Shown here in pieces: positions 3,931 through 54,816 of a stretch of DNA of 64,000 bases. The notes below the pieces were generated by a model. It did no database searches, had not been told where the DNA came from, and was given only the letters and a program-made list of their open reading frames with translations. The first letter of the stretch is position 1, and each line of letters starts with the position of its first letter. The stretch spans positions 1 through 64,000 of the forward strand of contig CANREG010000002.1 in assembly GCA_947629565.1 (NCBI GenBank), read 5' to 3'. The stretch comes from an uncultured Lachnospiraceae bacterium (GTDB taxonomy: Bacteria; Bacillota; Clostridia; Lachnospirales; Lachnospiraceae). A program made the translations under genes and the position numbers.

Positions 3931-3960
3931 AACCAGTAGATAACGAAAAAGGTATAAGTA

Positions 3961-3996
3961 ATTCCCATACAGAGCGGTCTGTGTGGGAATTTTTTT
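3961..3996 (+). terminator. Rho-independent terminator of the hrcA-grpE-dnaK-dnaJ operon
   Basis: A 13-bp stem (3961-3973 with 3978-3990, one G-U pair) closes a 4-base GCGG loop. It is followed by a run of seven T residues at 3990-3996. It lies 57 bases after the dnaJ stop and just before the promoter of the next operon. Confidence 0.93.
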
Positions 3997-4023
3997 GCAA
4001 AAAGGAGGCGGGTGTGATATAAT
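3995..4023 (+). promoter_or_regulatory. Sigma-A-type promoter of the glycosylation island
   Basis: TTGCAA at 3995-4000 is separated by exactly 17 bases from TATAAT at 4018-4023. The -10 is preceded by an extended TG at 4015-4016. The -35 overlaps the T run of the dnaJ terminator, so the two operons are packed end to end. The first gene starts at 4074. Confidence 0.75.
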
Positions 4024-4073
4024 AATATTCAATATGCGCCTTGAGCTTTGATAGGAAGGAAAGTTGTGCGAAA

Positions 4074-5021
4074 ATGAAAGAGTCAGAGAAGATTTCTTTT
4101 GTAATTCCCTGTTACCGTTCTGAAAAGACGGTTATTCTGGTGGTTGATGAAATTGAGGAGACCATGGGGCAAAGAAAGGAATTAGATTATGAAATTATAT
4201 TGGTGAATGACGGGTCTCCGGATAACGTCTGGGATGTGATTGCCAGACGGGCAGCAGATGATAGTCATATTACTGGTATTAATCTTGCCAGAAATTTCGG
4301 ACAACATGCGGCTCTCATGGCTGGATATAACTATTGCACCGGTGATTATGTGGTTTCCCTGGATGATGACGGGCAGACTCCGGCCAATGAAGTATTTTCA
4401 TTAATGGACGAGTTGGAAAAAGGTTATGATGTAGTATATGCATCATATCCGGAAACGCATCAGAACTGGTTTCGGCGGTTGGGTTCGGATTTTGCTAGTA
4501 AAACATCAGCATATGTTTTTGGCACGAAGGGAGACGACAGAAAGGGAAGCAGTTTTTTTGTAATGCGCAGATATATTGTAGAGGAGATAGTCCGATATGA
4601 ACATTCTTTTCCTTATGTTGCAGGATTGATATATAGAACCACGACAAATATTGGTTTTGTGCAGGTCAATCACAGGGAGCGTTTTTCCGGCACCTCCGGA
4701 TACAGCCTTAGGTCTTTGATTTCCCTGTGGCTGAATGGGTTTACTGCATTTTCAGTGCGGCCGTTGGAACTGGGGGCCTATGCGGGTTTTGGCATGGCGA
4801 TTGTGGGATTTATATATGCTATTTATACGATTATACGACGTTTGTTAAATCCGTCAATTATGCAGGGCTGGAGTTCGCTGATCTCTATTATGTTGATTGT
4901 CGGAGGGATTATTATGATTATGCTGGGCTTGATTGGCGAATATATTGGCCGTATATATATATGCATTAATAACTCTCCCCAGTATGTGGTAAAAGATATA
5001 TGTAAAAAGGATAAAATGTAA
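4074..5021 (+). CDS. GT2-family polyprenyl-phosphate glycosyltransferase (ArnC-like)
   Basis: A 315-aa membrane-associated glycosyltransferase. I start at ATG 4074 (MKESEKISFVIPCYRSEKT) because GGAAGGAAAG ends about 10 bases upstream; a TTG at 4041 is in frame but has no such site. The N-terminal GT-A fold shows VIPCYRSE, EIILVNDGSPD and the metal-binding VSLDDDGQTP. Two hydrophobic segments near the C-terminus (about residues 235-260 and 275-300) match ArnC/GtrB-type enzymes that load a sugar onto undecaprenyl phosphate on the cytoplasmic face. The SMR pair at 6218-6918 and the TDP-sugar genes downstream suggest that it makes the lipid-linked donor. The sugar itself is inferred. Confidence 0.85.
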   Translation: MKESEKISFVIPCYRSEKTVILVVDEIEETMGQRKELDYEIILVNDGSPDNVWDVIARRAADDSHITGINLARNFGQHAALMAGYNYCTGDYVVSLDDDGQTPANEVFSLMDELEKGYDVVYASYPETHQNWFRRLGSDFASKTSAYVFGTKGDDRKGSSFFVMRRYIVEEIVRYEHSFPYVAGLIYRTTTNIGFVQVNHRERFSGTSGYSLRSLISLWLNGFTAFSVRPLELGAYAGFGMAIVGFIYAIYTIIRRLLNPSIMQGWSSLISIMLIVGGIIMIMLGLIGEYIGRIYICINNSPQYVVKDICKKDKM

Positions 5022-5035
5022 GAGGTGGTATTCTT

Positions 5036-6181
5036 ATGAAAACGCTATTAAGCAGCGTGACTTATCAGGAAAATGATTATTATGTTAAAATTAATCATTT
5101 ACTGCACAGTGATAAAAAAATTGGTGTTTTTGGAGCCGGGATTTATGCAAAACAATTAGAATCGCGGTTAAATAAATGGGGGATTTTAATTGATTTTTGT
5201 GTAGTTGATGACGAATATTTTGACACGGCAATTTCTAATGGTAAAGAGCTGGTTAAATTAACCCAATTAAAATCTTATGACGATGTTATATTAATTATTG
5301 GTTTTGAAACAATAGTTGAGCGGGAAGAATTTTTGAAGGCAAAAATTAATGAAATATTACTCTCTGCCCCCAATATCGAAATAATGGATTTTGAAAATTG
5401 TTATGTTGATTGGGATTTTATTGATTATCCTTTTTTTCTTAATCATTATGAAGAATTTGAAACAACGTATAATTTATTAGCAGACGATTTTTCAAGAAGA
5501 GTTATGGTTGAATATTTAAATGCCTGCATTTCCGGAAAGGCAGGTGATTTTTGTAATTTAAAAACAGATCATATGCATGATTATGAGCATGAACTGATTT
5601 TTAAGAACATAGTTTCGGGGGGGGTAATTCTAGAGTGTGGTGCATACAATGGCAAAACGGCACTCGAAACAGCAGAAACCTTAGAGGATAAGAATATATC
5701 AGCAACAATTGTTGCATTAGAGCCGGATGAAAGTAATATCAAAATATTGAATGATAATTGTAAAAATTATCCCAATATTGTTTTGGAATCAAAAGGCGTG
5801 TATAGCAAGGATGGAATTGTATATTTCTGTCTGTTGGGAGGGCAGGCTGGGAAAATAACAAATATAGATGAAATTGAAGATATGTCGCAATATACCGCTG
5901 TCGATGTGGTCAGCATCGACTCATTAGAGAAAAAATACGGTCCGATTACGGCTGTCTTAATGGATATAGAAGGAAGTGAGTTAGAGGCGCTTAAAGGAGG
6001 AATAAATGTTATCAAAAAATATAAACCTGCGTTAGCAATAAGGGCTTACCATAAAAAAACAGATTTATTTGAAATACCAATGTTTTTGGATTCATTGTTG
6101 ACTCAGAATAAATATAAATTATATCTTCGAAATAATGCAAACAGCAGGGGAATATTTGATTTAACATTATATGCTGTTTGA
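5036..6181 (+). CDS. FkbM-family SAM methyltransferase with N-terminal nucleotide-binding-like domain
   Basis: A 381-aa protein with two parts. Residues 25-100 resemble a Rossmann-like domain (KIGVFGAGIYAKQLESRL). Residues 190-370 resemble an FkbM methyltransferase: VILECGAYNGKTALE (SAM loop), ATIVALEPDESN and VLMDIEGSELEALKGG. FkbM proteins are usually O-methyltransferases acting on sugars or polyketides. The ATG at 5036 follows AGAGGTGG. The gene is clearly more AT-rich than its neighbours (long A/T runs, many AAA and TTA codons), which hints at separate acquisition. It shares its whole architecture with the gene at 6957. The substrate is unknown, and cell-surface sugar methylation is inferred from context. 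Confidence 0.8.
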   Translation: MKTLLSSVTYQENDYYVKINHLLHSDKKIGVFGAGIYAKQLESRLNKWGILIDFCVVDDEYFDTAISNGKELVKLTQLKSYDDVILIIGFETIVEREEFLKAKINEILLSAPNIEIMDFENCYVDWDFIDYPFFLNHYEEFETTYNLLADDFSRRVMVEYLNACISGKAGDFCNLKTDHMHDYEHELIFKNIVSGGVILECGAYNGKTALETAETLEDKNISATIVALEPDESNIKILNDNCKNYPNIVLESKGVYSKDGIVYFCLLGGQAGKITNIDEIEDMSQYTAVDVVSIDSLEKKYGPITAVLMDIEGSELEALKGGINVIKKYKPALAIRAYHKKTDLFEIPMFLDSLLTQNKYKLYLRNNANSRGIFDLTLYAV

Positions 6182-6217
6182 TAAATATAGTATTGTTTGG
6201 GTAAAAGGATAATGGGA

Positions 6218-6586
6218 ATGAAAGAAAAAAGTTATAATTGGAGGGCATTTGTTGTTCTTCAGCTTGCTGTTTTTATTGTATCTTTAGGCGGAATCTGTTC
6301 CAAAATGGCAGGACGGCAGATATTTTTATCTAAAAAGTTTATAATATATTACGCCTTGCTGTTATGCATACTGTTTGTATATGCGCTTATATGGCAGCAG
6401 GTGCTTAAGCATATCTCACTGTCTGTCGCCTATGCCAGCAAAGGCGTGGGGATTGTGTATGCGATCTTGTGGGGAATATTGATTTTTGGCGAAGAGATAC
6501 GATGGAATATGATAGTGGGCGCAGTTTTGGTATTAATTGGTTCTTATTGTTATATCATTGATGAAATCAGGAGGATTTCCAAGTGA
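6218..6586 (+). CDS. SMR/EamA-type small membrane protein, first half of a transporter pair (ArnE/ArnF-like)
   Basis: A protein of about 122 aa with four hydrophobic segments. The start is uncertain: ATG 6212 and ATG 6218 are both possible, and 6218 has better spacing from AAAAGG at 6203-6208. The motif SVAYASKGVGIVYAILWGILIFGEEI is typical of small multidrug resistance and ArnE/F-type half-transporters. The next gene overlaps it by 4 bases (GTGA) and encodes a similar protein, so the two probably form a heterodimer. In ArnE/ArnF such a dimer is thought to flip a lipid-linked sugar across the membrane. The adjacent GT2 gene supports that role. General drug export is the alternative. Confidence 0.75.
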   Translation: MKEKSYNWRAFVVLQLAVFIVSLGGICSKMAGRQIFLSKKFIIYYALLLCILFVYALIWQQVLKHISLSVAYASKGVGIVYAILWGILIFGEEIRWNMIVGAVLVLIGSYCYIIDEIRRISK

Positions 6587-6918
6587 ACTATATAATTATT
6601 TTTCTGCTGTCTGTGTTTGTGTCCTCCGTTTCCCAGATCTTGCTGAAAAAAAGCGCAGGCAGACAATATAAGAGCGTGATTGCCGAATATCTGAATCCGA
6701 GGGTTATTACAGCATATGGGATGTTTTTTTTATCCACCCTGTTAACCATGTATGCATATAAAGGCGTGCCGCTGTCTTTTGGCGCACTTTTAGAGGCGGC
6801 AGGATATATATATATTCCGGTGTTAAGTTATTTTTTTCTGGGAGAAAAGATAACGTCGCTGAAAATAACCGGAGCTGTATTGATTATACTCGGCATATGC
6901 TGTTATTCTTTGCTATAG
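6583..6918 (+). CDS. SMR/EamA-type small membrane protein, second half of a transporter pair (ArnE/ArnF-like)
   Basis: A 111-aa protein with four predicted hydrophobic helices, starting with GTG at 6583. It overlaps the stop codon of the preceding gene by 4 bases, so the two are probably translationally coupled. The segments ISQILLKKSAG-like (SQILLKKSAG) in helix 1, YAYKGVPLSFGALLEAAGYI in the middle and YFFLGEKITSLKITGAVLIILG at the end fit the DMT/SMR fold. It presumably pairs with the upstream protein as a flippase for a polyprenyl-linked sugar. The assignment to lipid-sugar flipping is inference from gene order. Confidence 0.75.
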   Translation: MNYIIIFLLSVFVSSVSQILLKKSAGRQYKSVIAEYLNPRVITAYGMFFLSTLLTMYAYKGVPLSFGALLEAAGYIYIPVLSYFFLGEKITSLKITGAVLIILGICCYSLL

Positions 6919-6956
6919 ATATGATGTCGATAACATGAAGAACAAAAAGGAGATAA

Positions 6957-8090
6957 ATGATGAGACCACTGGAAGATTATTCTAAAATTATTTTTTTAGG
7001 CGGCGGCATTATGGCTGAGCGGTTGTATCGACAGATTGAAGGGATTGAACAAAAACTGGTTGGCGTTATGGATTTGTTAGAGCCTGAAAAACGGACCAAA
7101 ACGGAGTTTAAGGGGTTGAAGATTCAGTCACCGGAGTGTTACAGGGAGGTTCTGACCGATGGAGATACTGCAGTTATCGTTGCGATAGGACAATGGTTTG
7201 TGCCCGATATAGTTCATCAATATCTGTCTCAGTATGAATTCGGAGAAGAAAATCTTTTTGTTGTCAATCCGTATACAACGCTGCGTTTTTTCTGTATCGA
7301 TGAAGAGTTGGAAAAGGAAAAGAGAATATCGGTTAAAGCCCCAGGGTATCAATTTGTCAGGAAACTGTTTCAGGATGAGCTTTCGCTGAAAACATACCGA
7401 TTGCTGACGGAAAGTAAACCGTATGATACATTTGCCGACCCCTATGAGATTATGCCATATACACAGATAAAAGATATGTATTACATGGAAGAGGATTACT
7501 GGCTAAGTTATGATTTTGGTAAAAGCTGTGGCGGAGAAGCTACAGTTATTGATTGCGGCGCATATATTGGTGACAGCATATTGCCGGTTTGCAATAAAAT
7601 ACCGCAAAATCATATATACTATTATGCCTTTGAGCCGGATCGGGAAAATGCGGACTGTATGCGGAACAACGAGGAATTCAAAAATGCAGTCAGTCAACTG
7701 GAAATATATGAATATGGCGTAGGAGAGAAAAACCAGAGGCTTTCATTTAAATATCCGGAAAATGGAGACAAAGAGGGCGGAAGGTTTGTGGAAATAAATG
7801 ATGACACAGCCGAAGCGTTAGAGGTGAAACGGTTGGATGACCTTAATCTCGATATCCATGGCACGCTATATATTAAAATGGATATAGAAGGTTCTGAACT
7901 GGGGGCGTTAAAGGGAGCAGAGGACATATTGAAAAAGAACAGGCCTTATTTAGCGATTTGTCTTTATCACAGAAAAAATGATTTGTTAGAAATTCCCACA
8001 TATATCGCAAAACTTCTGCCGGATTATAAATTTTATCTGCGGGGAGGGTTTCATACCATATTGTGGGCAATTCCGGAAAAACAGGAGTAG
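6957..8090 (+). CDS. FkbM-family SAM methyltransferase, second copy
   Basis: A 377-aa paralogue of the protein at 5036, starting at ATG 6957 (or ATG 6960) after AAAAAGGAG. The N-terminal part has a Rossmann-like KIIFLGGGIMAERLYRQI. The C-terminal methyltransferase part has ATVIDCGAYIGDSI, YYAFEPDRENADC and YIKMDIEGSELGALKGAE, the same three landmarks as the first copy. Base composition is closer to the rest of the island than that of the first copy. FkbM enzymes transfer methyl groups from SAM, usually to hydroxyls of glycans. Two copies could methylate two positions or two sugars. The substrate is not visible from the sequence. Confidence 0.8.
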   Translation: MMRPLEDYSKIIFLGGGIMAERLYRQIEGIEQKLVGVMDLLEPEKRTKTEFKGLKIQSPECYREVLTDGDTAVIVAIGQWFVPDIVHQYLSQYEFGEENLFVVNPYTTLRFFCIDEELEKEKRISVKAPGYQFVRKLFQDELSLKTYRLLTESKPYDTFADPYEIMPYTQIKDMYYMEEDYWLSYDFGKSCGGEATVIDCGAYIGDSILPVCNKIPQNHIYYYAFEPDRENADCMRNNEEFKNAVSQLEIYEYGVGEKNQRLSFKYPENGDKEGGRFVEINDDTAEALEVKRLDDLNLDIHGTLYIKMDIEGSELGALKGAEDILKKNRPYLAICLYHRKNDLLEIPTYIAKLLPDYKFYLRGGFHTILWAIPEKQE

Positions 8091-8100
8091 TTGATTTATT

Positions 8101-8817
8101 ATGAAAATAATTAATGCAGTCTGGGAACAGCGAAATCTGGGCGTAGATGCAGCAGAGATTCAATTTGAGATGAAGGATCGGATTGAGGACATTGCAGATT
8201 CTTTTGAAAATGTAGCGGCAGCCTATCTGGTAGCCAAGATTCCCAGTGGGCGTGGGGACTTATGTGGATTTGTGCAGGACCATGAATATCGATATATAGA
8301 AGATTTGATACAGATGGAACATGATTTACATGAACCGGTGCGAACGCCGCTGCATCAGCGTCTGTATAATGCAACTTCTTATAGAAAAATGACAGAGGAG
8401 GATATAGATATCCTGCAAAGGGAAGTCATGGCGGGAATGTTTGATTCCGACAGAATTTCCCAGGATTATGTCTTTGGGAAAGATGTGGCTGCAAAACGGT
8501 ATTGCAATTGGATTCATGATTTGATTGAACAGGGGGCGACGCCTTATGTGATTTTGTATAAGGAAGAACCGGCCGGTTTTGTTATGTTAAAGAATATGGA
8601 TAGTAAAAGCTATGAGTCCGTGTTAGGTGGCGGATACCAAAAGTATCGTGATACGGGGCTTGGACTAATACAAAAAGAACAAGAGATTGTTAAAAAAATG
8701 GGAGGAAAGCGGGTAACTACTCATGTTTCATCTAATAATCAGGCCCAATTAAGAGCCATGGTTTTAAACGGCTATATTCCCATGGGAATTGAACATGTTT
8801 TTGTGAAGCATATATAA
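8101..8817 (+). CDS. GNAT-family N-acyltransferase, WecD/RffC-like (sugar amine acylation)
   Basis: A 238-aa protein. The C-terminal half carries the GNAT fold: SDRISQDYVFGKDVAAKRY, then TPYVILYKEEPAGFVMLKN, the acetyl-CoA loop region (KYRDTGLGLIQKEQEIVKK) and VSSNNQAQLRAMVLNGY. The DRIS-D...A...Y..W pattern resembles WecD/RffC, which acetylates dTDP-4-amino-4,6-dideoxygalactose. The WecE-like aminotransferase two genes downstream makes exactly this type of substrate, so a joint role in Fuc4NAc-type sugar synthesis is likely. The ribosome binding site is weak (AGGAG at 8083-8087, 13 bases upstream), so the start is less certain. The acyl donor and the exact sugar are inferred. Confidence 0.7.
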   Translation: MKIINAVWEQRNLGVDAAEIQFEMKDRIEDIADSFENVAAAYLVAKIPSGRGDLCGFVQDHEYRYIEDLIQMEHDLHEPVRTPLHQRLYNATSYRKMTEEDIDILQREVMAGMFDSDRISQDYVFGKDVAAKRYCNWIHDLIEQGATPYVILYKEEPAGFVMLKNMDSKSYESVLGGGYQKYRDTGLGLIQKEQEIVKKMGGKRVTTHVSSNNQAQLRAMVLNGYIPMGIEHVFVKHI

Positions 8818-8851
8818 AATACAATAATTAAAATGAAAGGCAAATAGGAAA

Positions 8852-11458
8852 ATGGAAAAGCGTATAATGTTGATAAAGAAACATGGGGTATATATTGCGG
8901 CATTTTTGTTTCCGTGCATAATAGTTTTTTTGCATCTGATTACAAGAAATTCGTGGATATTCGGCGACGGAAGCATTCTCCGGGGAGATGCGGGCATACA
9001 GTATGTATATATTTTTGAAGAATTGTGGAATAAAGTACACAGTGGTGATTTATCCTTTTATAGCTGGAATGCGATGAGCGGATATGACTTTTATCTGAAT
9101 GTGATATATTATGCAATTTCGCCGGCAACGTTGATTTTACTGATATTGCCTAAAAGCATGTTGTATGATGGCATCCAGTTTTTTATGGTACTAAAATGGG
9201 CGTTGCTTTCCCTGTCTTCTGTGTATTTTTTTATGCATACAAAGTTTAACACATTAAAGAAGAACAGAAAATTAGTTGCGTTCACGTTAGGCGTATGTTA
9301 TGCTTTGGGGAATTTTTTTATTGATATGTTATGTTTATTCAATTGGCTGGACAGTCTGATATTGTTTCCTGTATTGCTCCTGTTAATTGAGAACATGACG
9401 GAGAGTGGAAAATGGAAACTGTACTACTGTGTATTGACAGTCTGTATATTTTGTAATTTTTATATTTCTTTTCCTATATGCATTTTTGTTACGTTTTGGT
9501 TTTTGGTAAATCTGTGGAAGGTTCATCAGGAAGATATGGGAAAAAGAATCAAAACATTTCTTGGCTCCTCAATTTTGGCGGGAATATCATCAATGGTGAT
9601 CATTATTCCCAGCATTTTTAATGTGAATAGCAGATATACGGAGGGAAGCCAGAATGTTCAAGAATATGTTAGAAGCATAATAAAGACGGTGGAAGGGTTT
9701 GTTAAGAAGTTCTTTATTTTTAGTTCTGTTGATGAAAATCATTTAAGTACATGTATGTTTATGTCAATAGGCGCAATTGTTCTTGGTTTGCTCTTTTTCT
9801 TTATTAAGTCAGATAAACGGATAAAATATACCAAAATTGCTATGTTTTTATTAGTACTGGCATCTTTCTTTATAGGAGCGCTCAATTATTTTTGGCATGG
9901 ATTTTCTGTTCCTCACGGAATCGACAGCCGGTATGCTTTTGGATTTATACTGTTATTCTGTATTATGGGACTTGAGGTATTTGCAAATTTAAAACAGATA
10001 AAACTGCAGCATTGTTTCATTGTTTTTGCAGTCAGTCTGGCGCTGTTCTTTTATACCTTTTTCCATCTTACGCATTTTGAAGCTGTTTATGTATATCTTG
10101 GCACATTATTTTTAATTGTACTGTACAATATATTATTTATGTTGAATCGCAGAAAAAGTATCAGCAATAAGATATTTATACGGATATTTTGTTGTCTGTG
10201 TATTTTAGAAATAAGTGCAAATGCATATTATCAGTTGAGGGCATATGAAGTCTTACGGCCGGAAAAAATTGGAAATGTGGCAGAGGCAGAAAAACAGGTT
10301 GAGGGCTTGAAGGTAAAAGAAGGGCAAAGGGTTGCGTTTCAGGATGCAGGATATGGAATGGGAATGAAAACAGGTCTTCCAAGTATTTCCGGATTTGTTT
10401 CCTTTTTTAACGGGAATCTGGGGGATTTATGTTATAATCTTGGCATGAACCGGGTTTCTGATGCGGCAATTGATTATTCCGGTGGGACTCCGGTTATGAA
10501 TGTTATGTTTAATATTGGGTATGGCGTGGGAGGATACGAATCGGAATTCAGTGATTGTGAAGTGGTAAAATCAGATGAGAATATGATATTGTGTAAGATG
10601 AACAGGCCGGCAGGACTGGGATATATGGTGTCTGACGACATAGTAAACTGGGAAGGCAATGATTTATCCAACTTTGTGAACCAAAATGAATTTGTTGAAA
10701 AAGCAACAAATGGGGCTGTGAAAGAGGTATTTAAGGTGTTTACCCCTGATGTGACCAACTGTGCCTGTGATAATTACAGTCTGGATACTGTCACGGAAGA
10801 ATTGGAAGAAGCAGGCGTATCCTATCATTATCTGATATTGGATGATGAAGAAAACAGTGTGCTGGAATTTGAGGCTGATGAGGATATGGATTTGTATTTT
10901 ACGATAAAAGGAAGTACGGAGTATTATTCTTCAGTGATGGTAAATAATCAGCTGGTGTATAAAGATGTCATAAAGATGGGAAGAAATATTGTTCATTTGA
11001 AAGATATTAAAGCAGGAGACAAAGTGTCAATTAATAATTATGTTGAGGGAGAGGCAGGGGAAGAGGCTGCTTTTTATATGCAGTTTGCCCGGTTTGATTT
11101 CGCGCAGTATGATACCTTTTACGATATGATATCAAAAAATATTTATGATATCACCTCTATGAAACCGGATGATATAAAAGGGACAATATCAGTAGATAAA
11201 GCGGGTGTGATGATGACCTCCATCCAGAATATGAAGGGCTTTCAGGTATTTGTGAATGGAAAGAAGGCCAATTATATAACCATTGGACAGGCGTTGATCG
11301 GAGTGCCTTTAGAACCCGGAGAATATGAGATAGAGTTTCAATACCGTACGCCGAATTTTGTGACAGGATGTGTTTTGTCAGGGGCGGGTATTATGATTTT
11401 TATTTTTATGTGTATATGGGACCGAAAAAAAAGGAGAGATAAAGTTGATTCCGTTTAA
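8852..11458 (+). CDS. YfhO-family GT-C-like multi-pass membrane glycosyltransferase (copy 1)
   Basis: An 868-aa protein with about 12 hydrophobic segments in the first 460 residues and a large extracytoplasmic C-terminal domain. The YfhO signature is visible: LRGDAGIQYVYIFEELWN, YSWNAMSGYDFYLNVIYYA and SP in the first external loop, then GLGYMV near residue 590 and MTSIQNMKGFQVFVNGK near the end. YfhO proteins are the third part of CsbB-flippase-YfhO systems and transfer a sugar from polyprenyl phosphate to a surface acceptor. The 3' end overlaps the aminotransferase gene by 14 bases. Two further copies lie at 12603 and 22745. The acceptor is unknown. Confidence 0.88.
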   Translation: MEKRIMLIKKHGVYIAAFLFPCIIVFLHLITRNSWIFGDGSILRGDAGIQYVYIFEELWNKVHSGDLSFYSWNAMSGYDFYLNVIYYAISPATLILLILPKSMLYDGIQFFMVLKWALLSLSSVYFFMHTKFNTLKKNRKLVAFTLGVCYALGNFFIDMLCLFNWLDSLILFPVLLLLIENMTESGKWKLYYCVLTVCIFCNFYISFPICIFVTFWFLVNLWKVHQEDMGKRIKTFLGSSILAGISSMVIIIPSIFNVNSRYTEGSQNVQEYVRSIIKTVEGFVKKFFIFSSVDENHLSTCMFMSIGAIVLGLLFFFIKSDKRIKYTKIAMFLLVLASFFIGALNYFWHGFSVPHGIDSRYAFGFILLFCIMGLEVFANLKQIKLQHCFIVFAVSLALFFYTFFHLTHFEAVYVYLGTLFLIVLYNILFMLNRRKSISNKIFIRIFCCLCILEISANAYYQLRAYEVLRPEKIGNVAEAEKQVEGLKVKEGQRVAFQDAGYGMGMKTGLPSISGFVSFFNGNLGDLCYNLGMNRVSDAAIDYSGGTPVMNVMFNIGYGVGGYESEFSDCEVVKSDENMILCKMNRPAGLGYMVSDDIVNWEGNDLSNFVNQNEFVEKATNGAVKEVFKVFTPDVTNCACDNYSLDTVTEELEEAGVSYHYLILDDEENSVLEFEADEDMDLYFTIKGSTEYYSSVMVNNQLVYKDVIKMGRNIVHLKDIKAGDKVSINNYVEGEAGEEAAFYMQFARFDFAQYDTFYDMISKNIYDITSMKPDDIKGTISVDKAGVMMTSIQNMKGFQVFVNGKKANYITIGQALIGVPLEPGEYEIEFQYRTPNFVTGCVLSGAGIMIFIFMCIWDRKKRRDKVDSV

Positions 11459-12575
11459 TAAACCTCCCTATGTGGGAAAAGAAAAAGAATATATTGCGGA
11501 GGCTATAAACTCCAACAAAATAAGCGGAGATGGTATTTTTACAAAAAAATGCCAGGAATGGCTGGAAAACATTACCGGAACAAGAAAGGCGCTGCTGACT
11601 ACTTCCTGTACTTCGTCATTGGAGATGAGTGCGCTTTTATGTGATATAAAACCGGGAGATGAAGTGATTATGCCATCTTATACCTTTGTATCTACAGCGA
11701 ATGCCTTTGTTATGCAGGGAGCGGATATTGTATTTGTCGATATCAGACCGGATACTATGAATATAGATGAAAAGTTGATTGAAGAGGCTGTGACAGAAAA
11801 AACAAAAGCAATTGTACCGGTTCACTATGCAGGAGTGGGCTGCGAGATGGATAAAATCATGGAGATTGCCGCAGCGCACAATTTGATGGTGATTGAGGAT
11901 GCTGCCCAGGGCTGTTGTGCTTCCTATAAAGAAAGACTGCTTGGCTCCATCGGGCATTTGGGGTGCTATAGTTTTCATGAAACGAAGAATTTCAGCATGG
12001 GAGAGGGCGGCGCACTTTTGCTTAATCGGGAAGACTTTATTGAAAGAGCTGAAATTATGAGGGAAAAAGGAACAAACCGCAATCAGTTTTTCCGGGGAGA
12101 GGTTGATAAGTATAGTTGGATAGAAAAAGGTTCTTCCTACCTGCCAAGTGACATGAACGCCGCATATCTTTGGGCGCAGCTGGAACAGGCTGACAGGGTG
12201 AATGAAAACCGTCTTGGCATATGGCGACAGTATGATGCCGGACTGCAGGAACTTAAGAAAAAAGGGTATATTGAATTGCCGTATATACCATCGGAATGTA
12301 AGCATAATGGGCATATGTATTATATAAAAACCGATTGTCTGAAGACGCGTACCAGATTGATTGAATATTTACGCAAATGTGGAATATACGCAGTGTTTCA
12401 TTATGTGCCTTTGCACTCTTCCGCAGGAGGACAAAAATACGGCCGGTTTTGCGGTGAAGACCGGTTTACTACGAAGGAGAGCGAAAGACTGGTGAGACTG
12501 CCGCTGTATTATGGATTGAGCGGTGATGAGGCAGAGTATATAGTGGATGCGGTTCAAAAATTTTATATACAGTGA
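11445..12575 (+). CDS. rffA: dTDP-4-amino-4,6-dideoxygalactose transaminase-like (WecE/RffA, DegT/DnrJ/EryC1 family)
   Basis: A 376-aa PLP-dependent sugar aminotransferase of normal length. It starts with TTG at 11445, inside the end of the YfhO gene, with AAGGAGAGAT upstream. Family landmarks include IPFNKPPYVGKE, GDGIFTKKCQEWLE, DEVIMPSYTFVSTANAFV, VIEDAAQG and the PLP lysine context CYSFHETKNFSMGEGGAL. In RffA/WecE the enzyme converts dTDP-4-keto-6-deoxyglucose to dTDP-4-amino-4,6-dideoxygalactose (TDP-Fuc4N). The WecD-like acyltransferase at 8101 would acetylate it. No RmlA or RmlB is present in the window, so the TDP-keto sugar must come from elsewhere. Family membership is firm; the exact sugar is inferred. 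Confidence 0.9.
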   Translation: MIPFNKPPYVGKEKEYIAEAINSNKISGDGIFTKKCQEWLENITGTRKALLTTSCTSSLEMSALLCDIKPGDEVIMPSYTFVSTANAFVMQGADIVFVDIRPDTMNIDEKLIEEAVTEKTKAIVPVHYAGVGCEMDKIMEIAAAHNLMVIEDAAQGCCASYKERLLGSIGHLGCYSFHETKNFSMGEGGALLLNREDFIERAEIMREKGTNRNQFFRGEVDKYSWIEKGSSYLPSDMNAAYLWAQLEQADRVNENRLGIWRQYDAGLQELKKKGYIELPYIPSECKHNGHMYYIKTDCLKTRTRLIEYLRKCGIYAVFHYVPLHSSAGGQKYGRFCGEDRFTTKESERLVRLPLYYGLSGDEAEYIVDAVQKFYIQ

Positions 12576-12602
12576 TTTGTGAAAAAGAGAAGAGGATAGT
12601 AT

Positions 12603-15224
12603 ATGGAAGAAATGAAAAAGAAATTAAAGAAAAACTGGATATATATAGCGGCCTTTGCTATTCCGTGGATGATATTTTTATTTCATTCGTGGTATGCCGA
12701 CACCTGGGTAACCGGAAACGGAAGTATTCTGCGCGGAGACATGTCAGCTCAATTGGTTCCTTTTTACTATGAATTGTGGAATAAGATTCATGCAGGAGAA
12801 GCGCTTTCTTTTACCTGGAATGTGGGGGGCGGAGTAGATTTTCATACCATCAGCGGGTATTTGATATCTCCGTTCACTTTGCTGGTGCTGCTGTTACCTA
12901 AAGCGTGGATTCCCAATGTGGTGCAGTTTATTATGGTGATGAAATGGGCTTTGGTAACTGTCAGCATGGTATATTTTTTCAACCGTACCCGTTACAATAC
13001 AATAAAGGAGCATAAGGGAGTGGTTTCCCTGTTTTTAGGCACTGCTTATGGAATGGGAACCGGCATGATTAATTATATGGGCTATATTCAGTTTGAGGAT
13101 GTAATGATTTGCTTCCCCATTCTGCTGCTGCTGGTGGAGAAAATGGTATCAGAAAAAAAGTGGAAGCTGTATTATCTTTTACTGACATTTTCTATGTTTA
13201 GCAATCTGTATTTATCCTTTAGCGTTTGTATTTTTCTGTTGCTGTGGTTTATTTTGCAGCTTATGTCCGATACCGGAGAAAAAATAAAGAAATTTTTGAT
13301 ATTTGCAGGGACGTCAGTGCTGGCAGCCCTCACTTCCTTTAACGGATTAATCACCGGATTTGCGTTGGCTCAGGGGAGACTGGATACGGAATTGGACGAT
13401 GCGTTGAAGAACTATTTGCAATCTATGCTGGTAGAACCCCATAATTTTATAAAGCAGTTATTTGCTTTGACGCCTGTCGCAGATGCTACAAGCTATGATC
13501 CCAATATCTATTTTTCAGTCATTGCAGCAACGCTTGTGGGCACATTTTTATTTGTGAAAATAGAAAAAAAGAAAAAGATATATATGTTGTGTTTGGCCGG
13601 TATACTGACACTCAGTTTTTTTTATGGTCCACTGAGCATTATATGGCATTGTTTTGCGGTACCTAACGCAGTATATCACCGGTTTGCTTATCTGTTTGTA
13701 TTTGTAATGCTCTTTTTGGTCCTGCATGTGCTGATACATTTAGAGGAGCTGCGGCTGCGCCATATATGTGCAGTCGGAATAGCAGATGGCATTATATTTG
13801 TGCTTACCTTCTTATTTCTTGAATATTATGAATCTTATAAAGTATATCTGATAACCATAATGCTAATGGTTTTAACCATTATATTGTTGTATTTTCTTCG
13901 GAAAAAAAGGATTGCTTATCCGCAAATGCTGCTTACTATTTCAGTCATTGGTATACTGGAGGTATGTGTAACAGCTTTTGCTGCGTTGAAGGATTTTGAC
14001 AGAGATGCCTTTTATAATGACAAGGGGAATCAACAGGTTGTGGAGTTAGCAGGAAAAGCGGATTTGGCGGCCGGGGAACGGATGGAATTCATGGATTGTA
14101 CGCTGAATATGGGACTGGTGACTTCCAGGGCGTCAGATTCGGCTTTCCTGTCCAGTCTTAATGGATATAAGCGGCAGATGCACAAGGAATTAGGGATGCC
14201 ATATAATGGACAGGTGGAATATTCCTATTGCGGCGCCTCTCCTTTAATTAACCTGTTATCCAATATCCGATATTATGTGGCTACCGCTTCCACTCAGGTC
14301 AGTGATGCGGAAGAAGCGGCCACAGAAGATGGATATACCTTATACCGTACCAAGCGACTTGCCGGATTAGGTTATATGGTAGATGAGGAAATAACGAATT
14401 GGGATATAACTAAGGGAACAGGCTTTGATGTTCAGAACGGTTTTGTCAAGAATGCAGTTGGGGGCGCCGACATATTTCGTAAAATCAAATCCCCGCAGCT
14501 TACCTGTTACAATTCCACTGGTGAGATTCTTCAAGCCGATGCTGCATGGGCAGAAGAAGGAATTTATAGATATAACTATCAGATGCGATATGGAAATGAA
14601 ATGGATGCAATGATTGTCCAATATGTGGCGTCTGAGGATATAGATGATTTGTATATATCAGGAATCGCAAATTGGGGCGCATATTTTAATATAGCTTTGG
14701 ATGATGAATTAATTCATCCCAGTGATACAATAAATATTCAGCAAATGTTTCATATTGGAAAAATTAAGAAGGGGCAGACTCTCATCATATGTGCAATACC
14801 GGCGCCTTCGATCACTGCTGTGCCCGAAGGGATTCTTGCATTAGAATTTGCAGAGTTTAACGAGGACGCCTATGCGGAAGCCTATGAAAAGTTAAGCAGC
14901 AATGTGTATCAAATCGAAACACAGGAGGCAGACTATGTAAAAGGCTCTATTGAGGCTGAACAGTCAGGAATTATGATGACGTCCATTCAGGCTTTGGATG
15001 GTTTTACCGTTTACGTAGACGGGAAGGAAACCCAATGTGTTAAGGTGGCGGATGCTTTGCTTGGCGTTCCTCTGGAAAAGGGGAAACATACGGTTGAGTT
15101 CAAGTACCGGACGCCGTCGCCTCTGTATGGGAAGGTAATCTCTGCAGGCGCATTTGTCCTGTATGTGATATTCTGCCTGATTGATAATAGGAAGAAGAGG
15201 AAGAAAAATGGAAGTATACTTTGA
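12603..15224 (+). CDS. YfhO-family GT-C-like multi-pass membrane glycosyltransferase (copy 2)
   Basis: An 873-aa paralogue of the proteins at 8852 and 22745. The start at ATG 12603 follows GAGAAGAGGATAG. The external-loop motifs are LRGDMSAQLVPFYYELWN, FTWNVGGGVDFHTISGYLI and SPF. The middle shows AGLGYMVDEEITNWD, and the C-terminal domain has MTSIQALDGFTVYVDGKE before a last membrane helix and a basic tail. It would move sugars from a polyprenyl-phosphate carrier to an acceptor outside the cell. Compared with copy 1 the Asp of the first loop is kept, while the following residues differ (MSAQ instead of AGIQ), which may reflect different specificity. Its last 17 bases overlap the cysteine desulfurase gene. 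Confidence 0.88.
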   Translation: MEEMKKKLKKNWIYIAAFAIPWMIFLFHSWYADTWVTGNGSILRGDMSAQLVPFYYELWNKIHAGEALSFTWNVGGGVDFHTISGYLISPFTLLVLLLPKAWIPNVVQFIMVMKWALVTVSMVYFFNRTRYNTIKEHKGVVSLFLGTAYGMGTGMINYMGYIQFEDVMICFPILLLLVEKMVSEKKWKLYYLLLTFSMFSNLYLSFSVCIFLLLWFILQLMSDTGEKIKKFLIFAGTSVLAALTSFNGLITGFALAQGRLDTELDDALKNYLQSMLVEPHNFIKQLFALTPVADATSYDPNIYFSVIAATLVGTFLFVKIEKKKKIYMLCLAGILTLSFFYGPLSIIWHCFAVPNAVYHRFAYLFVFVMLFLVLHVLIHLEELRLRHICAVGIADGIIFVLTFLFLEYYESYKVYLITIMLMVLTIILLYFLRKKRIAYPQMLLTISVIGILEVCVTAFAALKDFDRDAFYNDKGNQQVVELAGKADLAAGERMEFMDCTLNMGLVTSRASDSAFLSSLNGYKRQMHKELGMPYNGQVEYSYCGASPLINLLSNIRYYVATASTQVSDAEEAATEDGYTLYRTKRLAGLGYMVDEEITNWDITKGTGFDVQNGFVKNAVGGADIFRKIKSPQLTCYNSTGEILQADAAWAEEGIYRYNYQMRYGNEMDAMIVQYVASEDIDDLYISGIANWGAYFNIALDDELIHPSDTINIQQMFHIGKIKKGQTLIICAIPAPSITAVPEGILALEFAEFNEDAYAEAYEKLSSNVYQIETQEADYVKGSIEAEQSGIMMTSIQALDGFTVYVDGKETQCVKVADALLGVPLEKGKHTVEFKYRTPSPLYGKVISAGAFVLYVIFCLIDNRKKRKKNGSIL

Positions 15225-22744: not shown

Positions 22745-25372
22745 ATGAATCAGGGATTAGATATTATATTAGTCAAGATGAAGGAAAAACGTTTTTATAT
22801 AGCTGCATTTCTAATTCCCTGGTTGGTGGTGCTGGTATATGGTTTTGTGACAGGTACATGGCCTTTTCAGGGGAAAAGCCTGTTGGAAGGGGATACCGGC
22901 CTGCAGTATGTTGAGCTTTATTATGAGCTTTGGCATAAAGTGCGGGCGGGAGAATCCCTGTTTTATAGCTGGAATGCGTTTGGGGGATATGATTTCTTTG
23001 TCAATATGCTGTATTATCTGGTATCGCCTTTTACTGCGCTCATATTGATTTTGCCAAAGAGTCTGATACCGGCGGGAGTCCAGTTTATCATGGTTTTAAA
23101 ATGTTCCTGCGTGTCTTTGGCGATGACTTATTTTTTTAATCATACAAAGCATAATACATTAAAGGAACAAAAAGAGCTGGTATCGCTGTTTTTGGGCGTT
23201 GCCTTTGGTATCAGCAACGGCATGCTTTATTTTATGAAATTTTTCAACTGGATGGATGCTATGATTTTATTCCCCTTCCTTTTGTTAAGCATAGAAAAGA
23301 TGATGGAGGGCAGGGGTTATAGACGATTTTGTGTATTGCTGGCGTTGGCGATTCTTACCAATTATTATATTATGTATCATGTCTGTATCTTTCTGGTATT
23401 CTGGTTTTTCCTGCAAATGGATCGTAATACTTCTCATAAGCTGAAGAAATTCCTGCTTTTTGCCGGAAGTTCTGTGTGGGCAGCCCTGATGGCCATGGTG
23501 GCCATATTTCCCACTGTTCTTACATTGCATGACAGAGAGTCTGCAGATATGGCGCAGTTGGCGCATGCGTATGTAAGGTATATATTTAATAGATTGACAG
23601 ATATAGTACAGTCTTTCTTTATTATGCAGCCTATTTCTATATACGAATTTGCTCCGAATGTATATTTTTCGGTTGCCGCTGTCTTTTTGGCAGTTTTGTT
23701 CTGTTTTATTCGCATGGGAAAGAAAAAGAAACTGTATATTATTCTCTTTGCACTGTTTATGACAGCCAGCTTTTCCTTTGGATTATTGAATATTTTGTGG
23801 CATGGGTTTACAGTGCCTACCGGAGTGTATAATCGTTTTGTCAATATGTATATTTTTCTGCTGCTGTTTATGGCGATGCAGGTAATGATTCATTTGAGCG
23901 ATATTCGGTTATGGCAGATTCTTGCTGCGGGAATAACGGTTTTGTTCTTGGTGGGAATTACCTTTATCAGCATTAAGGAGTATCAGGCTGTTTATGTATA
24001 CTTGATTACAATTATGCTGGTGGTTTTTTATCTGTTAATGCTGATTCTGTATAAAAGACAGTCCATTACCCATTCTCAGATACTTTTAGTTTTTGTGCTT
24101 GCAGGACTTGGAGAGTTGTGCGTGAATGCATATAATGGTCTGAACGGCCTTTTGGATCATGATTTTTTTAAGGCAGAGGGAAATGCTCAGATTATGGAAT
24201 TGTCTGAAAAGGCAGAATTGCAAAAAGGAGCGCGGATAGCATATCCCCAGTGTTTTTATAACATGGGAATGGTTACGAATCTGCCGGTAGCATCTGGTTT
24301 TCTCTCTCTTACGAATGGCAATATAAACCGTCTGTACCGCAATCTGGGAATGGAATCAAGTAACGATGTACAGATTGCTTATTGTGGAGGGTCTCCCCTT
24401 CTTAATCTGATGTTAAACATTGAGTATGGGATTGCTGTAGATGAGTTACAATATAGCGATGAGGAATTGGTAACAGAGAAAGATGGCTATTATCTTTACA
24501 AAATACAAAGAGGGGCAGGATTGGGATATATGGTGGATAATAGCGTTCTGGATTGGGATGTGAATGGCGGACAGCCTTTTGATTTACAGAATTCCTTTGT
24601 CCGTCAGGCTGTGGACGGGGAGAATATTTTTAAGGTAGTGCATCCAGAGGTAAAATGTCAGCTATGGGATATGACATTGGAACCAAATGCGGATATCCTT
24701 TCGGAACAGAATATTTATTCCTATGTTTATGCGACGGCTTATGGAGATGAACGGGATGCGCTCCAGATGCAGTTTACCGTAGAAGAAGATCAGGATTTAT
24801 ATTTGATTCGCACCAGCTACCTTGATCTTTATGCACAGGTATATATTGATGGCGTCCTTGCACATGATGAAGTGGGGGTAAGTGTCCGGGGAACCATACC
24901 AATCGGGAAAGTAAAAAAAGGACAGGTAATTACTGTGGTGTTCTCTCCGGCGGATTCGGCAGATGCAGGGAAAAATGCGTGGATTCAGTGTCAAATGGCG
25001 GCATTTGACGAGGCGGCTTATGAGGCCGCTTATGAGCGGTTGACAGAGAGCGTTTATCATGTAGATACCATGGAAGCAGATTATGTGAAGGGTTCTATAT
25101 CAGTGAAGAAACCAGGTCTGATGATGACTTCTATTCAGGCAGTGGATGGTTTTCAGGTTTTGGTTGATGGAAAAGAGAGTTCCTATGAGGTGGTCGGTGA
25201 TACTATGATAGCAGTTCCCTTAGAAACAGGGGAACATGTTGTGGAGTTTATCTATCAGACACCGGGCATATGGCAGGGAATTGTGATTTCAGGAGTAAGC
25301 ATACTGGCATTCCTTGTGTCGGCGCTGTTGAAAAAAAGATTCGGAGATAAGGAGAAGGCATGTGAAAGATAA
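22745..25372 (+). CDS. YfhO-family GT-C-like multi-pass membrane glycosyltransferase (copy 3)
   Basis: An 875-aa third paralogue, starting at ATG 22745 after AAGGAG at 22729-22734, only 24 bases after the surface protein gene, so the two are probably co-transcribed. External-loop motifs are LEGDTGLQYVELYYELWH, YSWNAFGGYDFFVNMLYYL and SPF. The middle has AGLGYMVDNSVLDWD, and the C-terminal domain has MTSIQAVDGFQVLVDGKE plus a final membrane helix. In copies 1 and 2 an Arg precedes the conserved GD; here it is Glu (LEGD). It probably transfers a polyprenyl-linked sugar to a surface acceptor. Tight linkage to the surface protein makes that protein the first acceptor to test. Confidence 0.88.
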   Translation: MNQGLDIILVKMKEKRFYIAAFLIPWLVVLVYGFVTGTWPFQGKSLLEGDTGLQYVELYYELWHKVRAGESLFYSWNAFGGYDFFVNMLYYLVSPFTALILILPKSLIPAGVQFIMVLKCSCVSLAMTYFFNHTKHNTLKEQKELVSLFLGVAFGISNGMLYFMKFFNWMDAMILFPFLLLSIEKMMEGRGYRRFCVLLALAILTNYYIMYHVCIFLVFWFFLQMDRNTSHKLKKFLLFAGSSVWAALMAMVAIFPTVLTLHDRESADMAQLAHAYVRYIFNRLTDIVQSFFIMQPISIYEFAPNVYFSVAAVFLAVLFCFIRMGKKKKLYIILFALFMTASFSFGLLNILWHGFTVPTGVYNRFVNMYIFLLLFMAMQVMIHLSDIRLWQILAAGITVLFLVGITFISIKEYQAVYVYLITIMLVVFYLLMLILYKRQSITHSQILLVFVLAGLGELCVNAYNGLNGLLDHDFFKAEGNAQIMELSEKAELQKGARIAYPQCFYNMGMVTNLPVASGFLSLTNGNINRLYRNLGMESSNDVQIAYCGGSPLLNLMLNIEYGIAVDELQYSDEELVTEKDGYYLYKIQRGAGLGYMVDNSVLDWDVNGGQPFDLQNSFVRQAVDGENIFKVVHPEVKCQLWDMTLEPNADILSEQNIYSYVYATAYGDERDALQMQFTVEEDQDLYLIRTSYLDLYAQVYIDGVLAHDEVGVSVRGTIPIGKVKKGQVITVVFSPADSADAGKNAWIQCQMAAFDEAAYEAAYERLTESVYHVDTMEADYVKGSISVKKPGLMMTSIQAVDGFQVLVDGKESSYEVVGDTMIAVPLETGEHVVEFIYQTPGIWQGIVISGVSILAFLVSALLKKRFGDKEKACER

Positions 25373-53862: not shown

Positions 53863-54816
53863 ATGAAGAAAAAAATTTCTTTGATTATTCCAAGTTATAA
53901 TGAACAGGAAAGCCTGCCTATTTTGTATGATAGTCTTTGTGGTGTGGCAGAAAAAATGCCGGATTACGAATTTGAATTTTTGTTCGTGGATGACGGTTCA
54001 ACGGATGGAACCAAGGCCGTACTTAGGAAATTAGCAGCGGAAGATAAACGTACAATCTATTTTTCATTTTCAAGGAATTTTGGAAAGGAATCGGCAATGT
54101 ATTGTGGTTTCTGTAATGCAAAGGGCGACTATGTAGCTGTGATGGACGCCGATATGCAGGATCCTCCATCTCTGTTACCGGAAATGGTAAAAGATTTGGA
54201 AACAGGGGAGTACGACAGCGTGGCAACGAGGCGGGTTTCCCGCCAGGGCGAACCTCCTATTCGGTCTTTTTTTGCAAGGATATTTTATAGAATTATTAAT
54301 AAAATTTCGGATGCAGATATTGTAGATGGGGCCAGAGATTTCCGGCTAATGACCAGGGAAATGGTCAATGCAATTATCCGGATGTGTGAGTATAACCGGT
54401 TTTCCAAGGGAATTTTTGGGTGGATTGGCTTTCGGACAAAATGGATTCCCTTTGAAAATATTGAAAGAGTCGCAGGCCAGACAAAATGGAATTTTTGGGG
54501 ATTGTTTAAATATTCTCTCGATGGGATTATTAATTTTTCTCAGGTACCGTTAGTTCTTTCTTCCTGGATGGGTATCTTTTTTACGATTCTGGCTTTTGTC
54601 ATGATTTTATTTGTAATAGTAAGGAGATTAATTTTTGGTGATCCTGTACAGGGGTGGGCTTCTCTGGTGTGTATTATTACGCTTATAGGCGGTATCCAAT
54701 TATTTTGTATTGGTATTTTGGGACAATATATATCAAAGATGTATCTGGAAGTTAAAAATAGACCACATTATATTATAGGCGAAACAAATGAGAAAAATGT
54801 TAATAGGATAAAATAG
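53863..54816 (+). CDS. CsbB/GtrB-type polyprenyl-phosphate glycosyltransferase (GT2)
   Basis: A 317-aa GT2 enzyme starting at ATG 53863 after AAAGAGG. It has LIIPSYNEQESLPIL, FLFVDDGSTDGT and the metal site MDADMQDPPSL. The highly specific CsbB/GtrB segments GARDFRLMTREMV, NRFSKGIFGWIGFRTKWI and VAGQTKWNFWGLFKYSLDGI follow, with two membrane helices at the end. These enzymes transfer glucose or GlcNAc to undecaprenyl phosphate for export. CsbB and YfhO are partners in Bacillus, and three YfhO proteins are encoded 28-45 kb upstream. Only about 155 bases separate it from the pilus operon, which raises pilus or adhesin glycosylation as an idea. The sugar is inferred. Confidence 0.9.
   Translation: MKKKISLIIPSYNEQESLPILYDSLCGVAEKMPDYEFEFLFVDDGSTDGTKAVLRKLAAEDKRTIYFSFSRNFGKESAMYCGFCNAKGDYVAVMDADMQDPPSLLPEMVKDLETGEYDSVATRRVSRQGEPPIRSFFARIFYRIINKISDADIVDGARDFRLMTREMVNAIIRMCEYNRFSKGIFGWIGFRTKWIPFENIERVAGQTKWNFWGLFKYSLDGIINFSQVPLVLSSWMGIFFTILAFVMILFVIVRRLIFGDPVQGWASLVCIITLIGGIQLFCIGILGQYISKMYLEVKNRPHYIIGETNEKNVNRIK

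Follow-up and report, generated by a model that had tools for sequence, protein, structure and literature searches.

The DNA analysed here, hereafter the window, comprises the first 64,000 nucleotides of contig CANREG010000002.1 from an uncultured Lachnospiraceae bacterium. A YfhO gene in the window is flanked by a WecD-like and a WecE-like gene, which raises the question of which sugar the YfhO protein would transfer and by what route it would be supplied. The original prediction named a Fuc4NAc-type sugar. We consider it probable, from sequence comparison, that the operon at 4041-15224 builds and exports a single modified sugar, a polyprenyl-phosphate-linked N-acyl-Fuc4N that would be flipped by a pair of SMR proteins and then attached by YfhO to an acceptor at the cell surface.

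The WecD-like GNAT, YfhO1, and WecE genes lie where they had been placed, on the forward strand, with YfhO1 flanked on both sides. The reported 14-base overlap is also present, between the TTG start of wecE at 11445 and the end of the YfhO1 gene at 11458. These three genes are part of a longer operon than was first described, which adds a GT2 gene, two SMR genes, two FkbM genes, and the gene of a second YfhO protein (Table 1). The wecE gene is thereby placed between two YfhO genes. The operon is preceded by grpE-dnaK-dnaJ and followed by a cysteine-desulfurase-like gene and thiI, as read off the sequence. The enzyme families and the operon, together with the conserved linkage described below, come from sequence or structure prediction.

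Table 1. Coordinates of the operon, its genes, and the signals upstream of it.
Feature	Position	Strand	Basis or remark
Terminator-like hairpin	3960-3991	+	3' of dnaJ; pattern scan only
Promoter-like site	3994-4023	+	5' of operon, between dnaJ and GT2; pattern scan only
Operon	~4041 to 15224	+	Nine genes in one direction, intergenic gaps of 39 bases or less
GT2 polyprenyl-phosphate sugar transferase (putative), ArnC/PgfS-like	4041-5021	+	Alternative start ATG 4074
FkbM-family methyltransferase 1	5036-6181	+	TIGR01444 53.9 bits, cut-off 37.7
SMR1, SMR/EamA small membrane protein, ArnE-like	6197-6586	+	Profile match and hhalign
SMR2, SMR/EamA small membrane protein, ArnE-like	6583-6918	+	4-base overlap with SMR1
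FkbM-family methyltransferase 2	6957-8090	+	TIGR01444 75 bits
WecD-fold GNAT acyltransferase	8101-8817	+	TIGR02382 29.8 bits, AlphaFold2 model, hhalign
YfhO1, GT-C-type membrane glycosyltransferase, PgfM-like	8852-11458	+	PF09586 404 bits
WecE, dTDP-4-keto-6-deoxyglucose 4-aminotransferase	11445-12575	+	TTG start; TIGR02379 635 bits
YfhO2, second GT-C membrane glycosyltransferase	12603-15224	+	PgfM2 165 bits; PF09586 379.5 bits

The aminotransferase is solidly assigned to the WecE type and is predicted to form dTDP-Fuc4N. It scores 635.2 bits against TIGR02379 (E = 2.8e-191), over the curated cut-off of 434.85, and 631.3 bits against PRK11706 (cut-off 375). The next-best models are PseC, ArnB, and DesI with 215, 200, and 127 bits, respectively. 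Among solved structures, enterobacterial WecE (6blg and 4piw) matches best, at 538 and 535 bits; QdtB comes next at 165 bits. E. coli WecE and the operon enzyme are identical at 235 of 376 residues (63%). Translation initiates at the TTG codon, with an AGGAG sequence at 11432-11436 located eight bases upstream, and yields the N-terminal residues MIPFN that are also found in E. coli WecE. The PLP lysine is kept in the motif HETKN (residues 178-182), and K181 is invariant in an alignment of 17 proteins (A1). All 17 proteins share a one-residue deletion right after this motif relative to E. coli WecE.

Phylogeny, named at the outset as the test that could overturn this identity, did not do so. 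In a maximum-likelihood tree built without VioA, the operon enzyme and E. coli WecE share one 100/100 branch. The clade is separate from perosamine synthase, QdtB, ArnB, bacillosamine-type (PglE-type) enzymes, the genome's second DegT enzyme, and the enzymes of loci L151 and L152, which carry a PglC-like transferase. A perosamine, bacillosamine, or QuiN type is rejected on this tree. It is very unlikely that the product is another amino sugar, such as Qui4N, perosamine, a bacillosamine precursor, or Ara4N. The fold is common to all DegT aminotransferases and the Firmicutes group lacks the residue following the lysine motif, which would leave room for such a product, but the scores of PseC, ArnB, and DesI set against that of WecE and the common clade with E. 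coli WecE in the VioA-free tree argue against it. A literature search for WecE together with CalS13 found no report.

The precursor of WecE appears to be supplied from outside the operon. Neither rmlA nor rmlB occurs in the window, as had been noted, and a search of the genome located both in a full rmlA-rmlB-rmlD-rmlC set on contig C6 (L005). RmlA and RmlB score 484 and 493 bits, each over its cut-off. A lack of the two genes in the organism is thus rejected, and the enzymes missing from the window would come from this separate rhamnose-type operon.

By sequence, the WecD-like GNAT (ACYLTRANSFERASE) is only a distant WecD. Its score of 29.8 bits against TIGR02382 (E = 4e-7) lies far under the equivalog cut-off of 195.1, and phmmer against the PDB gives no match at E < 1, so that the relationship is visible by profile and fold comparison alone. 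A profile of 11 relatives aligns lengthwise with enterobacterial WecD in hhalign (97.1%). The AlphaFold2 model, with a mean pLDDT of 91, contains the two-part GNAT fold of WecD. The top PDB match of the model is 2fs5, E. coli WecD (TDP-fucosamine acetyltransferase), with an E value of 2.1e-14 and TM scores of 0.72/0.77; the second match has an E value of 1.2e-11. The position of E. coli WecD Tyr208, the proposed general acid, is occupied by Met in the operon GNAT and by Leu, His, or Gln in the aligned relatives. The protein is a WecD-fold relative and not a WecD equivalog. Of the homology originally claimed, the fold and the genetic tie to wecE hold, whereas the cut-off is missed and Tyr208 is not kept. 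The Fuc4N(Ac) pathway proposed to feed YfhO likewise retains its WecE-type aminotransferase, backed by HMM, PDB, and tree comparisons, and its precursor genes, but not a WecD equivalog.

The WecD-like GNAT family is rare, being found in 6 of the 348 genomes of the family. The gene directly adjoins wecE in G020, L074, G271, and G161, and in G234 it shares one gene run with wecE and rmlA. At L151 and L152, the nearby genes encode a different DegT aminotransferase and a sugar-phosphate transferase, so the role of the GNAT seems to extend to 4-amino sugars in general. Other neighbors in relatives are ACP genes (L149, L151, and L152), an AMP-ligase with LuxE/LuxC (G002/G005 and G271), and FkbH_N proteins (L149 and L150). 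The acyl group therefore need not be acetyl. "Fuc4NAc" is a guess for the product, and "N-acyl-Fuc4N, possibly O-methylated" is the safer designation.

These neighbors bear on a refinement of the main explanation that competes with Fuc4NAc. With the export route unchanged, the GNAT would move a longer or hydroxylated acyl group from ACP or CoA and FkbM would O-methylate the sugar. The terminal sugar formed in this way would have galacto configuration and resemble anthrose or a modified viosamine. The acyl-activation and ACP genes of the relatives, the replacement of Tyr208, and the two FkbM methyltransferases of the operon make this a serious possibility, though one that falls short of even, because the operon of the window has no acyl-activation gene and acetyl-CoA is still the simplest donor. 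A literature search on anthrose biosynthesis found no papers.

Two related arrangements were observed. In the G002/G005 island (L048:2326-9870 and L046), the WecD-like gene is separated from wecE by LuxC, LuxE, and AMP-ligase genes, and the GT2 gene has a TPP-enzyme gene beside it; together these insertions possibly form a cassette for acyl or branched-chain sugar modification. The genome of the window also encodes a second WecD-like GNAT, 42% identical to the first, on contig C21 (L147:9656-10375). Beside it are genes for an HMGL-like protein and a TPP-type enzyme, but none for WecE.

Loading onto polyprenyl phosphate, as originally suggested, is strongly implied by two neighbors that had been overlooked, the ArnC-like GT2 and the SMR pair. 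The family assignment of the GT2 is clear, and the protein is a candidate polyprenyl-phosphate sugar transferase. It scores 180.8 bits against ArnC and 155.6 bits against PgfS, each under the cut-off (500 for PgfS). In a GT2 tree, it falls within a clade of GT2s from WecE loci, apart from a second GT2 of the window (PgfS2, 53863). The tree was used for this separation alone, as its labels for distance from wecE are uninformative: members of one operon counted as "far" once they were more than five genes apart. The gene of PgfS2 (328 bits against PgfS) occupies 53863-54816, 28 kb past the third YfhO gene of the window. That YfhO gene, at 22745-25372, lies 3' of a gene for a 1686-residue secreted repeat protein.

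SMR1 and SMR2 match E. coli ArnE in hhalign with 95.7% and 92.1%, respectively, and ArnF weakly with 11% and 4%; the comparison covered ArnE and ArnF. The central Glu is missing from SMR1, SMR2, and every aligned row. Lipid-type SMRs, found mainly in Proteobacteria, often have Asn in place of this residue (PMC9574504), and the missing Glu and the ArnE match are in line with this type. SMR1/SMR2 is the only SMR pair that a sequence search found in the genome. A GtrA-type flippase (PF04138), in whose stead the SMR pair is present, was not found in the genome, nor was a WecF homolog. Neither usual alternative is thus seen, although at 85% genome completeness such absences are weak evidence.

The association of these genes is conserved in relatives. 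Within a 10-kb radius, an ArnC-like GT2 gene is present at 67 of 85 wecE loci that have 8 kb or more of context and at none of 19 control loci, which are centered on DegT aminotransferases other than WecE in the same set of relatives. The Fisher p value of 6e-11 is a guide only, as are the other linkage p values, because relatedness of the species inflates the linkage statistics and WecE loci themselves supplied the sequences for the GT2 and SMR profiles. Within the same distance, an SMR pair is found at 25 of the wecE loci and one control, YfhO at 19 and none, and rmlA at 16 and none. Another GNAT family, Acetyltransf_3, occurs in about 30 of the 85 loci and often adjoins the GT2 gene. In three loci (L071:12929-14404, L120:13052-14551, and L132:13031-14500), the Acetyltransf_3 GNAT and the GT2 are fused beside wecE in a single reading frame of about 490 residues. 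The fusions tie acylation to the polyprenyl-phosphate step, and no other single finding argues as strongly for the acylated amino sugar as the substrate of the GT2.

The same fusions weigh against two readings that uncouple the amino sugar from YfhO. WecE and the GNAT could make Fuc4NAc for a separate polysaccharide assembled in the cytoplasm (Wzx/Wzy or ABC), the adjacency of GT2, SMR, and YfhO marking a glycan island only. E. coli uses Fuc4NAc in this manner for common antigen, several WecE loci sit inside large polysaccharide clusters, and GT2 or SMR is missing at some WecE loci. We consider this unlikely: beyond the fusions, the linkage sets WecE apart from the other aminotransferases, the search for WecF was negative, wecE overlaps the YfhO gene, and the operon has no further soluble sugar transferase.

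Alternatively, the sugar processed by GT2, the SMR pair, and YfhO could be one of the common ones (GlcNAc, Gal, or Glc), with WecE and the GNAT as unrelated passengers. The characterized Gram-positive transmembrane glycosylation systems list these three sugars exclusively, with GtrA- or Wzx-type flippases (PMC8035078), and the pgf operon of S. mutans contains the UDP-glucose epimerase gene pgfE between pgfM1 and pgfM2 (PMC5856776). Against these precedents stand the WecE-GT2 linkage conserved across genera, the GNAT-GT2 fusions, and rmlA within the WecE-SMR-GT2-WecD run of G234, which together leave the common-sugar reading quite improbable.

A polyprenyl-phosphate N-acyl-Fuc4N donor is thus preferred, and its transfer would fall to YfhO. 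YfhO1 clearly belongs to PF09586, and its model is similar to AftD, to subunits of oligosaccharyltransferase (OST), and to undecaprenyl-phosphate-bound ArnT. As with PgfS, the PgfM equivalog score is missed (148.9 against 1500). The genome contains five YfhO copies. Operon context and fold suggest that YfhO transfers the sugar. The YfhO link of the WecE loci is looser than the GT2 link, since at some of them other membrane proteins of about 600 residues replace YfhO.

The sister genome G020 differs in this part of the operon. Its DNA is 94-96% identical to the window up to the end of wecD and 72-80% identical across wecE, YfhO1, and YfhO2, and the order of wecE and YfhO1 is swapped. This marks a mosaic boundary at 8811-8824, as though the genes at the transfer end had been replaced. 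G020 also contains a tandem YfhO fusion, a 1748-residue frame (L042:13740-18986) in which residues 7-861 and 882-1741 each form a complete YfhO domain.

The following scheme is inferred as regards its individual reactions and their order, the acyl group, the methylation, and the acceptor. RmlA and RmlB, encoded elsewhere, would form dTDP-4-keto-6-deoxy-D-glucose, which WecE would aminate at C4 to dTDP-Fuc4N. The WecD-fold GNAT would then N-acylate dTDP-Fuc4N with an acetyl or other acyl group, and the sugar may be O-methylated by either FkbM enzyme or by both. The ArnC/PgfS-like GT2 would load the sugar onto polyprenyl phosphate, and the SMR1/SMR2 pair would flip the lipid-linked product. Finally, YfhO1, YfhO2, or both, as GT-C enzymes, would transfer the sugar to a putative surface acceptor.

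Parts of this scheme are known from other systems. The enterobacterial common antigen (ECA) pathway of WecE/RffA and WecD/RffC shares the WecE enzyme (63% identical and in one clade), the top structural match of the GNAT, and the genes for the dTDP-4-keto-6-deoxyglucose precursor. Neither an ECA operon nor WecF was found here, and WecD Tyr208 is not kept; the sugar apparently goes to polyprenyl phosphate for extracytoplasmic transfer, whereas in ECA it enters lipid III. The CsbB-GtcA-YfhO system of Bacillus, Listeria, and Staphylococcus likewise combines a polyprenyl-phosphate sugar GT2, a small flippase, and a YfhO GT-C, but here an SMR pair replaces GtcA/GtrA and the operon has its own dTDP-amino-sugar synthesis. 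In the S. mutans PgfS-PgfM1-PgfE-PgfM2 system, a GT2 is combined with two YfhO/PgfM proteins, and a sugar-nucleotide enzyme is encoded between the latter two. Here, WecE takes the place of the UDP-glucose 4-epimerase, GNAT, FkbM, and SMR proteins are extra, and the PgfS and PgfM scores are far under cut-off. The Arn system for L-Ara4N (ArnB-ArnC-ArnEF-ArnT) also comprises a 4-aminotransferase, N-acylation, an ArnC-like GT2, an SMR pair, and a GT-C transferase. It differs in using a UDP-pentose rather than a dTDP-hexose, a formyltransferase rather than a GNAT, and ArnT rather than YfhO; the present operon contains no deformylase and involves no lipid A. With no GtrA, no ArnB or ArnT, and Pgf scores under cut-off, the defining features of these systems are missed, and the operon would represent a distinct variant of multi-component transmembrane glycosylation. 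The best explanation is that it works like CsbB-GtcA-YfhO and Arn, as an Arn-like transmembrane glycosylation system with a putative polyprenyl-phosphate N-acyl-Fuc4N donor.

We suggest tentatively, at rather less than even confidence, that gut Firmicutes widely possess such a hybrid of the Fuc4NAc and Arn pathways. The polyprenyl-phosphate N-acyl-Fuc4N would often carry a non-acetyl group and in some lineages be O-methylated, a lipid-type SMR heterodimer would flip it, and YfhO/PgfM would transfer it to surface proteins or polymers. For Fuc4NAc in Firmicutes, a literature search yielded work on E. coli only. If the proposal is true, an amino-dideoxyhexose would be a donor class not listed before for YfhO. 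An SMR flippase would take the place of GtrA in a Gram-positive system, and lipid-type SMR flippases, for which Proteobacteria are the main source of reports (PMC9574504), would extend to Gram-positive glycosylation. YfhO proteins, a widespread class of enzymes that decorate cell surfaces, are multi-copy in such genomes, and few of their sugars are known, hence the value of predicting a donor. If wecE-GT2-SMR operons make a defined Fuc4N lipid donor, the donors of these YfhO proteins would be predictable from the genome and directly testable, and a candidate surface sugar of gut commensals would have been named.
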